Assembly: GCF_014640175.1 (NCBI RefSeq)
Contig: NZ_BMGL01000016.1
Span: 1 to 62,933 of the forward strand
DNA length: 62,933 nt
Source of the DNA: Psychroflexus salis
GTDB lineage: Bacteria; Bacteroidota; Bacteroidia; Flavobacteriales; Flavobacteriaceae
Reading direction: 5' to 3'
Part shown: piece after piece, positions 13,410-32,960 of the stretch
Layout: every line of letters begins with the position of its first letter
How positions within the stretch are numbered: the first letter of the stretch is position 1
Made by a program: the position numbers and the translations under genes
The notes under the pieces: model-generated
What the model saw: the letters and a program-made list of their open reading frames with translations, nothing else
Told to the model about the DNA's origin: nothing
Databases searched by the model: none

Positions 13410-13487
13410 GGGCGCATAGCTCAGTTGGTTTAGAGCGTCTGGTTTACACCCAGAAGGTCGGGGGTTCGAATCCCTCTGCGCCCACCA
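13410..13487 (+). tRNA. tRNA-Val, anticodon UAC
   Basis: A full 78-base cloverleaf. The acceptor stem GGGCGCA pairs with TGCGCCC (13477-13483), with discriminator A and an encoded CCA at 13485-13487. The D stem is GCTC/GAGC, and the anticodon stem TCTGG/CCAGA closes loop TTTACAC with anticodon TAC at 13445-13447. The T arm contains GGTTCGAAT. An antisense frame across it gives the familiar spurious peptide containing RDSNPRPSG and is not a gene. Confidence 0.97.
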
Positions 13488-27499: not shown

Positions 27500-27526
27500 C
27501 GCGCAATTTTAATAGTATTAATAATC

Positions 27527-27541
27527 GGAGTCGCGAACTCC
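27527..27541 (+). promoter_or_regulatory. Short hairpin in the rpsP leader
   Basis: GGAGT-CGCGA-ACTCC, a 5-bp perfect stem 14 bases before the rpsP ATG. Ribosomal protein leaders often hold such hairpins for feedback by the protein, so this is a candidate S16 leader element. No downstream terminator is present, so any control would act on translation. Confidence 0.4.
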
Positions 27542-27555
27542 AAAATTTAATTTTT

Positions 27556-28119
27556 ATGCCAGTAAAAATCAGATTACAAAGACACGGTAAAAAAGGAAAA
27601 CCTTTTTACTGGGTAGTAGCCGCCGACGCGCGCGCTAAGAGAGATGGTAAATTCTTAGAAAAATTAGGAATTTACAATCCAACCACTAATCCTGCAACGG
27701 TTGAGCTAGATGTAGATGCATCTGTAAAATGGCTTCGTAATGGAGCACAACCAACCGATACTGCAAGAAGAATTCTTTCTTACAAAGGAGCAATGCTTAA
27801 AAAACACTTGCTAGCCGGAGTAGATAAAGGTGCACTTACCCAAGAGCAAGCTAACGAAAAAATGGAAGCTTGGTTAAAGGAAAAAGAAGACCAAGTTTTC
27901 GCTAAAAGCCAAGAAGTAACTCAAACTGCAGCCGAAGCTAAACAAAAAGCTTTAGACGCAGAAAAAGAGAAAAATGCTAAGCGTGAAGCTGATGCTAAAG
28001 CTGCTAAAGATGAAGCTGATGCTGAAGCAAAAGCTGCTGCAGAAGCAGAAGCTAAAACGGAAGAAGCTACAGAAGAAACAGCAACCGAAGAAGCTAGCGA
28101 TGACAAAAAGGAAGCTTAA
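27556..28119 (+). CDS. rpsP: 30S ribosomal protein S16 with long acidic/Ala-rich C-terminal tail
   Basis: 187 residues, about twice the usual S16. Residues 1-85 are typical S16: VKIRLQRHGKKGKPFYWVV, ADARAKRDGKFLEKLGIYNP and WLRNGAQPTDTARRILS. From about residue 115 it runs into an Ala/Glu/Lys-rich, highly charged segment, likely helical or disordered. Similar tails are found in other Bacteroidota S16 proteins; their role is unknown. It is followed 12 bases later by rimM, which matures the 30S subunit, so the two form a ribosome-assembly operon. Confidence 0.95.
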   Translation: MPVKIRLQRHGKKGKPFYWVVAADARAKRDGKFLEKLGIYNPTTNPATVELDVDASVKWLRNGAQPTDTARRILSYKGAMLKKHLLAGVDKGALTQEQANEKMEAWLKEKEDQVFAKSQEVTQTAAEAKQKALDAEKEKNAKREADAKAAKDEADAEAKAAAEAEAKTEEATEETATEEASDDKKEA

Positions 28120-28864: not shown

Positions 28865-28894
28865 TTTGCCATTAAAATCTTTGTTTTACTTTAG
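28865..28894 (+). promoter_or_regulatory. Promoter of the aromatic amino acid operon
   Basis: TTTG at 28865-28868 and TACTTTAG at 28887-28894 (one base off TAnnTTTG) are 18 bases apart, the same spacing as the tRNA-Val promoter. Transcription would start near 28900, just before the leader peptide ATG at 28913. Confidence 0.5.
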
Positions 28895-28912
28895 CAATAT
28901 ATTACAAACCAA

Positions 28913-28981
28913 ATGCTAAACAAAGTTTATTTCTGGAACTATTTTTATTTTGCTTTTTCAAGCGAAACAGGGGAGTTCTAA
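28913..28981 (+). CDS. Aromatic leader peptide (22 aa) of the pheA operon attenuator
   Basis: The ATG-to-TAA frame encodes 22 residues with the core VYFWNYFYFAF. Residues 6-15 contain eight aromatic residues in ten (four Phe, three Tyr, one Trp), with another Phe at the end. This is the hallmark of a regulatory leader peptide whose translation measures charged tRNA-Phe, tRNA-Tyr and tRNA-Trp. The stop codon at 28979-28981 lies inside the segment that pairs with the 5' arm of the terminator stem. The frame is far too short to be found by ordinary gene callers. Confidence 0.85.
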   Translation: MLNKVYFWNYFYFAFSSETGEF

Positions 28982-29030
28982 ATAAATGTGAACATAAATT
29001 TATAGAAGCCCCAAATATGGGGCTTTTTTT
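28926..29030 (+). promoter_or_regulatory. Transcription attenuator of the aromatic operon (1:2, 2:3 and 3:4 pairings)
   Basis: Four segments pair in alternative ways. Segment 1 (28926-28940, in the leader peptide codons) pairs with segment 2 (28974-28986): 7 + 5 bp around a small internal loop. Segment 2 (28970-28980) can instead pair with segment 3 (29003-29012): GGGG with CCCC and TTCTA with TAGAA. Segment 3 (29006-29012) pairs with segment 4 (29019-29025) as the terminator, a 7-bp AAGCCCC/GGGGCTT stem with a 6-base loop and a T-tract to 29030. Stalling on aromatic codons blocks segment 1 and frees segment 2 for the antiterminator; normal translation to the stop covers segment 2 and lets the terminator form. 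The pheA ATG follows the T-tract with no gap. Confidence 0.85.
29006..29030 (+). terminator. Regulated intrinsic terminator directly before pheA
   Basis: The 3:4 hairpin of the attenuator: a perfect 7-bp GC-rich stem followed by seven Ts ending at 29030. Read-through is needed to express the whole four-gene operon. Confidence 0.9.
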
Positions 29031-29864
29031 ATGCCTATGAGTTTTTCAAAAATTGCTATACAAGGAATTGAAGGTTCTAATCATTATAAAGTGATTACGG
29101 ATTATTTTAATGCACAAACGCAAATAAAAGCATGTTCAACTTTTAGAGAAGTTGTAGATGCTTTGGTTCATAACCAAGTAGATGCAGCTTTAATGGCCAT
29201 AGAAAATTCTATTGCGGGAAGTATTTTGCCCAATTACCGATTACTCATCGATGCTAATTTGCAAATTACCCAAGAGTTTTATTTAAACATCTGTCATAAT
29301 TTAGTCGCTTTACCTAACCAAAGTATAGAAGATATTACCCAAGTAAAATCTCACCAAATGGCACTACATCAGTGTGGCGAATTTTTTAATGCACACCCAC
29401 ATATTCGCTTAATTGAAGATGAAGATACTGCTCTACCCGCTAAAGTTATTGCAGAAAATAAACAAAAAAATGTGGCTGCTTTGGTGCCAACTGGCACAGC
29501 CGAATTGTTTGGCTTAACTGTTATTCAGCCCAATATACAAGATGTCGACTCCAACGAAACCCGTTTTGTATTATTAGAAAAGTCGGCTAAAACAGGAATA
29601 GAAAATGCCAACAAAGCCACTTTGCATTTTGAATTAAAGCATGAGCGTGGAAGTTTAGCAGTGCTCTTAGCTGTAATGCATCAATACCAAATGAATCTCA
29701 CTAAAATACAAAGCATTCCCATTGCTCATAAAAAATGGACTTACGCTTTTATTGTTGATGTGCGATTTACAGATGCAGAGAATTTTAAAAAAATGAGCCA
29801 AGAGCTAACTTCTACTACAGAAGTATTTCAAGTACTTGGTCTATACAAAAGCGGAAGAATATGA
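29031..29864 (+). CDS. pheA: Prephenate dehydratase
   Basis: 277 residues. It converts prephenate to phenylpyruvate, the committed step to phenylalanine. The catalytic TRF motif is in SNETRFVLLEK (residues about 180-190), and DAALMAIENSIAGS marks the N-terminal domain. The C-terminal 80 residues form an ACT domain, but the Phe-binding motifs are altered: GALV reads GSLA and ESRP reads QSIP. There is no chorismate mutase domain; that activity is fused to the DAHP synthase at the end of the operon. The first ATG (29031) touches the terminator T-tract; a second ATG at 29037 is possible. Confidence 0.92.
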   Translation: MPMSFSKIAIQGIEGSNHYKVITDYFNAQTQIKACSTFREVVDALVHNQVDAALMAIENSIAGSILPNYRLLIDANLQITQEFYLNICHNLVALPNQSIEDITQVKSHQMALHQCGEFFNAHPHIRLIEDEDTALPAKVIAENKQKNVAALVPTGTAELFGLTVIQPNIQDVDSNETRFVLLEKSAKTGIENANKATLHFELKHERGSLAVLLAVMHQYQMNLTKIQSIPIAHKKWTYAFIVDVRFTDAENFKKMSQELTSTTEVFQVLGLYKSGRI

Positions 29865-31027
29865 TTCGATTTTCAACGCGATTAGCGCAAACAGAAGAAT
29901 ACTACTTTAGCAAAAAGTTAAAAGAAGTAAAAGCTTTAAAAGAAGCAGGAAAACCAATTATAAACTTAGGGATTGGCAGCCCAGATTTAGCTCCGCCCAA
30001 CTCGGTTTTTCAAGCTATTGAAGATGCTTTGCACGAAAAAAATGCTTTTCAATATCAGGCATATCGCGGTATTGACGAATTGCGAAATGCATTGGCTTTT
30101 TTTTATAAACAACACTACAATCTTAGCATTGATCCTGAAGAAGAAATTCTGCCGTTAATGGGTTCTAAGGAAGGAATTATGCTCACTTCTATGGCATTTT
30201 TAAATGAAGGCGACCAAGTTTTAATTCCCAATCCAGGTTATCCAACTTATGCTGCGGTAACTAAATTGTTAAATGCAGTACCCAAGTTTTATAATTTAGA
30301 TGAAGAAAATAAATGGCATCCTAATTTAGAAATGCTTCAACAAATGGATCTATCTAAAGTAAAAATCATGTGGATTAACTATCCGAACATGCCAACAGGT
30401 GCAGATGCCGACCGACAAAAAATTCAAAAAATTATCAACTTTGCCATTCAACATGAAATTTTGTTGGTAAACGACAATCCTTACAGCATGATTTTAACCG
30501 AAAATCCATTTTCTGTTTTTCAGCTACCTAATGCCAATCAAGTTGCTCTAGAGTTAAACTCCATGAGTAAAAGCTTTAACTTAGCTGGTTTTAGAACAGG
30601 GTTTTTAGTCGGAAACGCTTCATTTGTAAATGCGGTAATTAAAGTGAAAAGCAATATGGATAGTGGGATGTTTTTACCCATTCAGCAAACCGCAGCAAAA
30701 GTACTTCAGTTAGAAAAAAATTGGTTTACTGAATTAAATGAAGTTTATAAAAAACGCCGGCAATGGATTTGGAAAATTGCAGACGAGCTCGATTTAAGTT
30801 ACGATGAAAATACCACAGGCTTATTTGTTTGGGCACAATTAAAAAATAAAGAAAAAGCAGAAAAATTAGCTGATCGATTACTCTATGAAGCCGACTTATT
30901 TGTTACGCCAGGAAAAATATTTGGAAGCCAAGGAGAAACATATCTGCGATTTTCCTTATGTGTTGATATAGCAGACTTACAAGTTTGTTTAGAACGGGTT
31001 CAAAAATTCAAAAAAACGAACTTATGA
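29861..31027 (+). CDS. Class I/II PLP aminotransferase, probably aromatic/prephenate-linked
   Basis: 388 residues. Its ATG overlaps the pheA stop by four bases (ATGA). The fold-type I features are INLGIGSPDLAPP near the start, YQAYRGIDELRNALA, the PLP-binding NPGYPTYAA region, VNDNPYSMI and the Schiff-base Lys in NSMSKSFNLAGFRTGF (residues about 228-243). From its place between pheA and tyrA it most likely transaminates phenylpyruvate and 4-hydroxyphenylpyruvate to Phe and Tyr (inference). An LL-diaminopimelate-type activity is a sequence-level alternative. Confidence 0.85.
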   Translation: MIRFSTRLAQTEEYYFSKKLKEVKALKEAGKPIINLGIGSPDLAPPNSVFQAIEDALHEKNAFQYQAYRGIDELRNALAFFYKQHYNLSIDPEEEILPLMGSKEGIMLTSMAFLNEGDQVLIPNPGYPTYAAVTKLLNAVPKFYNLDEENKWHPNLEMLQQMDLSKVKIMWINYPNMPTGADADRQKIQKIINFAIQHEILLVNDNPYSMILTENPFSVFQLPNANQVALELNSMSKSFNLAGFRTGFLVGNASFVNAVIKVKSNMDSGMFLPIQQTAAKVLQLEKNWFTELNEVYKKRRQWIWKIADELDLSYDENTTGLFVWAQLKNKEKAEKLADRLLYEADLFVTPGKIFGSQGETYLRFSLCVDIADLQVCLERVQKFKKTNL

Positions 31028-31869
31028 AAGTAGCCAGCATAGGTTTAGGTTTAATCGGTGGTTCTTTTGCGTTGGCCTTGCAAGAACATGTTCTTGAAGT
31101 AGAAATTTGGGGAATAGACCACAATCAAGCACATATTGAAGCGGCTTTGGCTCGGAAAATTATTCACCATAAAGGAAGTATAGACGATTTAAAAAACTTC
31201 GATTTAATTGTTTTGAGTATTCCGGTTGATGCAGCAAGTGCATTGTTACCCGAAATTTTACATCAAGCAGAAAAAGAATGTTTAGTAATCGATATGGGTT
31301 CTACAAAAAATGATGTTTGCGAAGCGGTAAAAAATCATGTAAAACGCAATCAATTTTTAGCCTTGCATCCCATTGCAGGAACAGAATTTTCGGGACCAAA
31401 GGCCGCTTTTGCTAGTTTGTTTAACAACGCGATGATGATTGTTTGCGAAGCTGAAAAAACCGATGAAAATTTAAAGAAAAAGGCCTACCAAATTTTACAG
31501 AAACTCAAAATGCAGCTTCATTTTATGTCGCCCAAAGAACACGATAAACATTTAGCGTATGTTTCGCATTTATCGCATGTAAGTTCATTTATGTTAGGAA
31601 AAACAGTATTGGATTTAGAAAAAAATGAAGGTGAAATTTTCAATTTAGCAGGCAGTGGCTTCGAATCTACGGTGCGTTTAGCTAAATCGAATTCTAAAAC
31701 TTGGATAGCCATATTTAAGCAAAATAAAGCTGAGGTACTAACTAGCCTAAAAGAGTATCAACAAAATTTAAAAGAATTTGAAAAACTTTTAGAAACCAAC
31801 CAATTTTCTGAACTTGAAAATTTATTGAATTCAACAAGTAGAATTAAAGAGATATTAGCCAAAAAATAA
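31024..31869 (+). CDS. tyrA: Prephenate dehydrogenase
   Basis: 281 residues from the ATG overlapping the previous stop by four bases. It oxidatively decarboxylates prephenate to 4-hydroxyphenylpyruvate on the way to tyrosine. Visible features are the Rossmann start VASIGLGLIGGSFALAL, VIDMGSTKNDVCE, HPIAGTEFSGPKAA and the catalytic-region AYVSHLSHVSSFML. No ACT domain follows, so feedback by Tyr would have to act elsewhere. Together with pheA it splits the prephenate branch point within one transcript. Confidence 0.93.
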   Translation: MKVASIGLGLIGGSFALALQEHVLEVEIWGIDHNQAHIEAALARKIIHHKGSIDDLKNFDLIVLSIPVDAASALLPEILHQAEKECLVIDMGSTKNDVCEAVKNHVKRNQFLALHPIAGTEFSGPKAAFASLFNNAMMIVCEAEKTDENLKKKAYQILQKLKMQLHFMSPKEHDKHLAYVSHLSHVSSFMLGKTVLDLEKNEGEIFNLAGSGFESTVRLAKSNSKTWIAIFKQNKAEVLTSLKEYQQNLKEFEKLLETNQFSELENLLNSTSRIKEILAKK

Positions 31870-31877
31870 AAGAAAGC

Positions 31878-32960
31878 ATGGAAAATAGAAAAGAGATGAA
31901 AACCTGGTTAAATAACCTAGGCCTGAACCATCCATTGGTTATTGCTGGGCCTTGTAGCGCAGAAACAGAAGACCAAGTAGTAAAAATAGCGCATCAGTTA
32001 AAAGAAACAGATACCAGTATTTTACGTGCAGGTATTTGGAAGCCAAGAACTCGCCCAGGCAATTTTGAAGGAATTGGAGCCATTGGCTTAAAATGGTTAC
32101 AACGCGCTAAAGAAGAAACCGGTTTAAAAATCGCCACCGAAGTAGCTAATAAAAACCATGTTGAGCTCGCATTAAAAGCAGATGTAGATGTGCTTTGGAT
32201 CGGTGCCAGAAGTACGGTAAGTCCTTTTATTGTACAAGATATTGCCGATGCTTTACAAGGCACCGACAAAATTGTATTGGTAAAAAACCCAGTAAATCCA
32301 GATTTGCCTTTGTGGCTTGGTGCTGTAGAACGTTTGCATGATGCCAATATTAAAAATTTAGGCGTAATTCACCGTGGATTTTCTACTTACGAAAAGACTA
32401 AATACCGAAATAATCCCGAATGGCAAATTGCTATCGATTTACAAAATGAATTTCCAGATCTGCCTTTAATTTTAGATCCTTCGCATATTGCTGGAAGAAG
32501 AGATTTAATTTTTGATTTATGCCAAACAAGCTTAGATTTAAATTACAACGGAATTATGGTAGAAACGCATTTTGACCCCAATAATGCATGGAGCGATGCC
32601 AAGCAACAAATTACGCCAAGTAGTTTAGACCAAATAACGGTAGATTTAAAAATTAGAAAAGAAACCACTAAAGCAAGTGACTACCAGGAATGTTTACAGA
32701 ACTTAAGAGTAAAAATAGATGTCTTAGATCAACAAATTCTCGATGCTTTAGGAAAACGAATGCGTATTGCAGACGAAATAGGCTTGTTAAAAAAGAAGAA
32801 TAATGTAGCCATTTTACAATCTAAACGATGGAACAGCATCTTAGGCAAAATGATTCATTTAGGAAAAGAACAAAGCTTAAGCGAAGATTTTATTTTAAAA
32901 TTTTTAAAAGCTATTCATGAAGAATCCATCAAACATCAGCATGAAATTATTAGCGATTAA
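31878..32960 (+). CDS. Bifunctional DAHP synthase (type I beta) / chorismate mutase
   Basis: 360 residues. Residues 1-255 are a type I beta 3-deoxy-7-phosphoheptulonate synthase: VIAGPCSAETEDQV, RAGIWKPRTRPGNFEG, WIGARSTVSPF, LVKNPVNPDLPLWLGAVERL and LDPSHIAGRRDLI. Residues about 268-360 are a type II chorismate mutase (LRVKIDVLDQQILDALGKRM, RIADEIGLLKKK). One protein thus starts the shikimate pathway and makes prephenate from chorismate. In the related fusion of Prevotella nigrescens the mutase domain lets prephenate inhibit DAHP synthesis; the same is likely here. It starts eight bases after tyrA. Confidence 0.93.
   Translation: MENRKEMKTWLNNLGLNHPLVIAGPCSAETEDQVVKIAHQLKETDTSILRAGIWKPRTRPGNFEGIGAIGLKWLQRAKEETGLKIATEVANKNHVELALKADVDVLWIGARSTVSPFIVQDIADALQGTDKIVLVKNPVNPDLPLWLGAVERLHDANIKNLGVIHRGFSTYEKTKYRNNPEWQIAIDLQNEFPDLPLILDPSHIAGRRDLIFDLCQTSLDLNYNGIMVETHFDPNNAWSDAKQQITPSSLDQITVDLKIRKETTKASDYQECLQNLRVKIDVLDQQILDALGKRMRIADEIGLLKKKNNVAILQSKRWNSILGKMIHLGKEQSLSEDFILKFLKAIHEESIKHQHEIISD

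Follow-up and report, generated by a model that had tools for sequence, protein, structure and literature searches.

In Bacteroides thetaiotaomicron, a putative attenuator has been listed ahead of the gene set pheA > hisHb > aroA-aroQ > tyrA (Merino database; PMC1173090, Table 7), and short open reading frames (ORFs) reminiscent of leader peptides have been described in 5' untranslated regions of the same species (PMC7366714). In Flavobacterium psychrophilum, a structured 5' element lies before pheA, recurs in other genera of the Flavobacteriaceae and has no Rfam match (PMC9723704); section 19 of that paper reports strong indications that leader peptides attenuate amino acid operons in this species. 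A 2010 survey counted no leader-peptide system as shown outside the Proteobacteria and Actinobacteria, except for the atypical ermC leader and its own case from Firmicutes (PMC2965389), while the 2010 comparative attenuation survey by Lopatovskaya, Seliverstov and Lyubetsky (cited in PMC4833913) may already list the pheA case. Transcript maps apart, none of the titles listed in searches of the open-licence literature is an experimental study of a Bacteroidota leader-peptide attenuator. The first-pass annotation of the DNA considered here had said that little experimental work exists in this phylum, which seems fair as far as experiments go, although computational and transcriptomic hints were already in print (PMC1173090, PMC9723704).

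Here we describe an attenuator-like leader ahead of an aromatic amino acid operon in a 62,933-nt stretch of Psychroflexus salis DNA, which we call the window. The operon consists of four genes:

29031..29864, + strand: pheA, prephenate dehydratase, the first gene of the operon (PF00800, E 4.1e-51)
29861..31027, + strand: class I/II aminotransferase, overlapping pheA by 4 nt (PF00155, E 1.3e-61)
31024..31869, + strand: tyrA, prephenate dehydrogenase (PF02153, E 8.7e-36; PF20463, E 4.3e-22)
31878..32960, + strand: DAHP synthase-chorismate mutase fusion (PF00793, E 5.1e-39; PF01817, E 1.2e-21)

Neighbouring genes are joined by 4-nt overlaps, that between the aminotransferase gene and tyrA included, or by an 8-nt gap; the tyrA start was set at the ATG of MKVASIG, within an ORF listed from 30985. 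The gap between rimM and pheA holds the following elements:

28865..28894, + strand: possible Bacteroidota promoter (TTTG at 28865-28868, an 18-nt spacer and TACTTTAG at 28887-28894)
28913..28981, + strand: leader peptide ORF MLNKVYFWNYFYFAFSSETGEF, 22 codons, its frame kept in relatives
28921..28990, + strand: helix 1:2, the protector (28921-28955 with 28960-28990, -17.1 kcal/mol)
28970..29012, + strand: helix 2:3, the antiterminator (28970-28987 with 28998-29012, -11.6 kcal/mol)
29004..29030, + strand: helix 3:4, the intrinsic terminator (29004-29013 with 29018-29027, -15.0 kcal/mol, U run 29024-29030)

The leader ORF runs from an ATG at 28913 to a TAA at 28979-28981, and its codons 6-15 read YFWNYFYFAF, so that the 22-codon leader with eight aromatic codons in ten that the first-pass annotation had reported is borne out by the sequence and its translation. 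Frames this short are easily missed by gene callers. When the rimM-pheA gap was shuffled 5,000 times with dinucleotide content preserved, chance ORFs with at least 7 aromatic residues in 12 appeared in 57 shuffles and with at least 8 in 11. Among 942 short ATG ORFs of the window (8-40 aa, both strands, nested starts counted separately), four reach 7 in 12 and the pheA leader alone reaches 8.

Folding recovered all three mutually exclusive helices that had been drawn by hand. The 1:2 pairing proposed at 28926-28940 and 28974-28986 is contained in the longer helix listed above, and the 3:4 pairing proposed at 29006-29012 and 29019-29025 forms the core of the terminator stem. As had also been noted, the leader stop codon lies inside segment 2, and seven Us contact the pheA ATG at 29031. 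Helix 2:3, composed of 28970-28973, 28976-28980 and 28983-28987 paired with 28998-29007 and 29009-29012, excludes both 1:2 and 3:4. The fold of 28890-29035 is more stable than those of all 200 shuffles (z = -4.19). Before segment 4 exists and without a ribosome, the lowest-energy fold contains 2:3 and not 1:2 (-19.1 vs -17.1 kcal/mol), a departure from the textbook picture of an attenuator; termination of an untranslated transcript would therefore depend on 1:2 forming first. From sequence alone, a chance origin of leader and fold together is unlikely, and conservation is decisive.

We read this element, with a probability of about 0.9, as a classical ribosome-mediated attenuator of a Phe/Tyr operon that operates on the same principle as E. 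coli trpL and pheL. What happens in the cell, from the start of transcription through leader translation and ribosome stalling to termination and the response to amino acids, we infer as follows. A ribosome would closely follow RNA polymerase along the leader. Whenever either Phe-tRNA or Tyr-tRNA was scarce, the ribosome would stall in the aromatic block (28928-28957) and mask segment 1, whereupon 2:3 would pair, the terminator would fail to form, and pheA and the genes downstream would be transcribed. With the tRNAs charged, the ribosome would reach the stop codon and cover segment 2, 3:4 would form, and transcription would end at about 29027-29030. Were the leader left untranslated, 1:2 would hold segment 2 and the terminator would likewise be permitted. 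Operon expression would thus depend on how fully tRNA-Phe and tRNA-Tyr are charged, and tRNA-Trp could contribute as an optional further input.

Conservation was assessed at several levels. We scanned 134 loci (48 + 86), of which 15 had no leader at threshold; from the remaining 119 we dropped one at which a different hairpin had been found (L111) and one doubtful case (L124), leaving 117 loci, 109 from the window's own family, the Flavobacteriaceae, and eight from other families of the order. The family loci were taken from the better-scoring pheA matches, and among these an aromatic leader (an ATG ORF with at least 7 aromatic residues in 12) is present in 110 of 111, the window included. The sole exception, L021, is cut by a contig end, and an RNA covariance model finds the remainder of the element there.

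Since the loci read were mostly better-scoring pheA matches, the model search gives the fairer count for the family. A protein search found pheA in 268 of 299 family genomes, and the covariance model matched 254 of these 268 (14 gave no match) against 3 of the 31 genomes without pheA, the lists being compared by eye and matches being counted per genome wherever they lay. Of the 81 sequences used to build the model, 62 came from these family genomes, which leaves about 190 matched genomes independent of it. Within the genus, where 20 of 27 genomes have pheA, all 20 carry a single match adjoining pheA, and none of the seven genomes lacking pheA carries one; 15 of the 20 had contributed to the model, the other five and the seven absences being independent. 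Six genus genomes (G299, G302, G306, G309, G315 and G319) yielded neither pheA, tyrA nor leader in our searches, which suggests, from gene content, that they are auxotrophic for Phe and Tyr. In a further one (G318) tyrA lies at a contig start, so the missing pheA may be an assembly gap.

A contig search with a PheA alignment gave 80 named loci, 77 of them with the leader (L234, L271 and L275 lack it); the same search with a single PheA sequence as query had returned no relative. The nearest named relatives of this PheA belong to Psychroflexus and Mesohalobacter, which by itself points to the genus of the window and to Flavobacteriaceae as its family. Beyond the family, 8 of the 23 loci read elsewhere in the order have the leader (L124 being additionally doubtful). 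At class level, pheA matches were found in 89 of 296 genomes; we read 60 of the 76 matches outside the order, from 22 other families, and found a leader with at least 7 aromatic residues in 12 at 39 of the 60, in 14 families. Segment 2 and segment 3 pass a shuffle test in 36 of these 39 leaders. No leader was found at four loci of f16, a family whose genomes measure about 0.6 Mb, or at eight of f5 (divergent pheA), and two class-level families were poor in it (f27, 0/7; f30, 1/5).

Signals for starting the leader transcript and its translation are fainter. Bacteroidota are said to lack Shine-Dalgarno sequences (PMC6847099). The kept reading frame hints indirectly that the leader is translated, as does the favoured A at position -3 in 85 of the 117 loci, although the window has C there. 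The candidate promoter element TACTTTAG differs by one mismatch from TANNTTTG, the consensus taken from the same source (PMC6847099), and would place the transcription start at about 28899. In only 17 of the 117 loci does an exact TANNTTTG occur in the 70 nt preceding the leader ATG, compared with a mean of 6.9 in shuffles, which weakly suggests a promoter before the leader.

Across the 117 loci, the leader ATG lies 89-114 nt before the terminator start, and the pheA match follows that start at a distance of 25-270 nt (median 53). The first distance being nearly fixed and the second variable, leader and terminator behave as one unit. This spacing bears on the proposal that the leader mainly controls pheA translation, with 3:4 hiding the start site in read-through RNA and 2:3 freeing it. 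The pheA gene has two in-frame ATGs, at 29031 and 29037, and the first directly follows the terminator U run, as it nearly does in the nearest relative (L031); because of that contact, translation of pheA might be influenced by the leader too in P. salis. A translational switch would be expected to keep its spacing, which the variable distance to pheA counts against, and a U run is present at each counted hairpin (a U run having been a requirement for counting). We consider mainly translational control unlikely, while translational control could add to attenuation in P. salis.

Variation in the helices supports the attenuation reading. Removal of near-identical sequences reduced the 117 loci to 89, and leaving out the eight other-family sequences gave 81 aligned leaders. 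In these, 97.5% of terminator stem cells are paired, both sides have changed at six of the eight pairs, and double-changed cells number 42 against 11.7 in shuffles; further pair types number 12, no excess over shuffles (11.3). The 5' arm of the terminator occurs in 13 six-base types, and segment 2, located in the last part of the leader ORF or immediately after it, tracks the type of segment 3 (GGGACU with AGUCCC, GAGAC with GUCUC, CAGGAUU with AAUCCUG, CGAGG with CCUCG). With one sequence per type, the mean energy of segment 2 with its own segment 3 is -11.1 kcal/mol against -6.8 kcal/mol when permuted, and none of 20,000 type-level permutations did as well. When segments 3 were swapped among the 13 types, the own segment 3 ranked first in only six, second in five, third in one and sixth in one. 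The segment 2 zone beats 95% of its own shuffles in 111 of the 117 loci, falls below the 5th percentile of swapped cores in only 47, and pairs upstream beyond shuffled leaders in 112.

In eight of the 117 loci the longest exact match between segments 2 and 3 ends 3-12 nt beyond the leader stop; the antiterminator strand is kept there although it lies past the stop codon, as expected of a constraint on RNA and not on peptide. Conserved peptide tails such as NETLYV, GTGLL and QDCAMVI are, by the same token, probably constrained as RNA. Column-wise counts on the MAFFT alignment (A1) were modest for 2:3: shuffles had 67.8% of cells paired and 9.0 double-changed cells, the real alignment 69.5% and 26; sliding the alignment by one column gave 63.9% paired, yet 35 double-changed cells. 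The modest result reflects a one-column displacement of one clade, and we judged conservation of 2:3 by the swap and shuffle tests instead. RNAalifold on the same alignment returned the terminator stem only. Altogether, comparison across the Flavobacteriaceae found leader frame, terminator and alternative pairing all conserved and covarying, with the leader in other families as well.

A rival view takes the hairpin for an intrinsic terminator that acts constitutively on the upstream rimM transcript, next to an aromatic ORF without function. The window does have a strong terminator between rimM and pheA, and AT-rich DNA occasionally yields Phe/Tyr-rich frames, as the 57 shuffles reaching 7 in 12 illustrate. 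A plain terminator needs no leader frame, no fixed spacing and no covariation between segments, whereas the frame is kept in all but one of the family loci among better-scoring pheA matches, the distance from leader to terminator is nearly fixed, and segment 2 varies with segment 3; we regard a constitutive terminator as very improbable. T-boxes, riboswitches and RNA-binding-protein devices also use terminator/antiterminator pairs, and on that shared feature one of them might control the terminator without leader translation, but this is the least probable reading of all, given that an Rfam scan found no family at gathering score at the leader site and that what is conserved apart from the terminator is a reading frame: it abounds in cognate codons, and the antiterminator strand is encoded at its 3' end.

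Elsewhere in the window, a tRNA gene (13410-13484) and an S16-Flavobacteria ribosomal protein leader (RF03138, 50.3 bits, 27517-27551, directly 5' of an ORF at 27556) were the only elements to reach Rfam gathering score, and a phage search gave no matches.

We modelled by folding how segment 3 responds to ribosome position. Before segment 4 exists, the mean probability over the 117 loci that segment 3 is held upstream is 0.74 with a stalled ribosome and 0.06 with a ribosome at the stop codon, and the stalled value exceeds the stop value by more than 0.1 in all 117. Shuffling the upstream stretch lowered the stalled value from 0.74 to 0.43, the real sequence lying above the shuffled one in every locus. 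The window's entry among the 117 carried a wrong hairpin; folded separately with the right one, the window gave 0.73 stalled and 0.01 at stop. The same test gave 0.62 and 0.04 for E. coli trpL and 0.87 and 0.00 for E. coli pheL, so on this measure the window behaves like the two textbook attenuators.

The state without a ribosome is less clear-cut. The mean over the 117 loci is then 0.55, lying below the stalled value by about 0.1 or more in only 53, and in the window 1:2 does not dominate 2:3. Helix 1:2 may act as a protector, as the upstream pairing of segment 2 beyond shuffled leaders in 112 loci weakly suggests, but this is the least certain part of the scheme. With segment 4 in place, the equilibrium favours the terminator in all ribosome states tested for the window (0.90-0.93) and in most loci, and the terminator is clearly weaker stalled than at stop in only 51 of the 117 loci. 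For E. coli trpL with segment 4, the terminator likewise dominates at equilibrium in all states. Given this dominance, the switch must be kinetic and decided during transcription.

As to which amino acids are sensed, Phe codons are present in all 117 leaders, Tyr in 116 and Trp in 66. The first-pass annotation had tied the operon to the charging of all three aromatic tRNAs; Phe and Tyr are indeed conserved, but Trp is not, and trpE has a separate leader. In the P. salis genome, a leader with Trp-Trp-Trp, MKILNNNWWWSKLRLRS, lies upstream of trpE with a hairpin and U run after it (G000:C9, locus L312, 1336-1389). Among the genus trpE loci read, 23 of 24, this one included, have a Trp-Trp-Trp leader with hairpin and U run, the 24th (L318) having been read at the wrong offset; the six weakest of 30 fetched loci were left out of this family search. 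In the P. salis trpE leader, segments 2 and 3 did not pass the shuffle test (187 of 500 shuffles as good). A His-rich leader, MKKFWHIHHFHTSLKTALNK, with hairpin and U run, likewise lies upstream of hisG in this genome (G000:C5, locus L280, 1209-1271 of the reversed locus); it passed the same test (13 of 500 shuffles as good), and His-His leaders occur in 18 of 21 genus hisG loci, that of P. salis among them (L277 was read at the wrong offset). Upstream of ilvD, no convincing leader was seen in nine loci, two of them read at the wrong offset, and the P. salis genome has no ilvD match. With Phe and Tyr codons near-universal in the pheA leaders and a separate Trp leader at trpE, the codon content indicates that Phe and Tyr are probably the primary signals read by the pheA leader, with Trp added where its codon is present.

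Three family genomes without detectable pheA also match the model. Two of them, of one genus (G033 and G259), lack tyrA as well and have the match before the DAHP synthase-chorismate mutase gene. Their leaders, MTNNNTWWSNSKFYLKR and MIYNNTWWSYSKFYPNR (L351, 1513-1566, and L350, reversed, 1513-1566), carry tandem Trp codons and a matching terminator, and in each 21 of 500 shuffles pair as well. Either the pheA-type leader has been re-aimed at Trp here, or these may be distinct leaders of the trp type. In the third genome (G116) the match sits at the edge of its contig, past which pheA may be located. Second, weak model matches in G056, G171 and G176 are not accompanied by an aromatic leader and resemble terminators that match by chance.

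Taken more broadly, the data can be read as an old, Bacteroidota-wide class of leader in which the charging of Phe and Tyr tRNAs is read in one peptide (Trp being optional), initiation is independent of Shine-Dalgarno sequences, and codons are re-aimed when the pathway changes; the last element comes from the two genomes without pheA and tyrA whose tandem-Trp leader precedes the DAHP synthase-chorismate mutase gene. We offer this wider reading tentatively and rate it somewhat below even odds. A conserved Phe/Tyr leader, beside Trp and His leaders, would extend classical attenuation to a phylum that is said to be devoid of Shine-Dalgarno sequences. Attenuation under such initiation implies close coupling of transcription and translation; if the reading is true, ribosomes follow RNA polymerase closely in Bacteroidota, which can be tested.

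The attenuation of pheA, the aminotransferase gene, tyrA and the fusion gene by a translating ribosome, as originally proposed for this locus, is thus the best explanation, with anatomy, conservation and covariation in its support. The pheA attenuator is well supported, of a known kind, and hinted at in print before. Like the B. thetaiotaomicron case, it is a predicted attenuator ahead of a corresponding gene set; that case is a table entry, in which leader peptide, sensed amino acid and conservation are not described (PMC1173090). Like the F. psychrophilum pheA element, it is conserved, structured and without an Rfam family; section 19 of that study does not call the element a leader-peptide attenuator (PMC9723704). 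With E. coli pheL and trpL it shares a short leader of product codons, alternative helices and an intrinsic terminator before the first structural gene, together with the same folding response to ribosome position. It differs from them in phylum and in its operon of pheA, aminotransferase, tyrA and DAHP synthase-chorismate mutase genes, in a leader class that mixes Phe with Tyr and adds Trp in 66 of 117 loci, and in how strongly segment 3 is held upstream without a ribosome, at 0.68 in the window compared with 0.24 in trpL and 0.05 in pheL.
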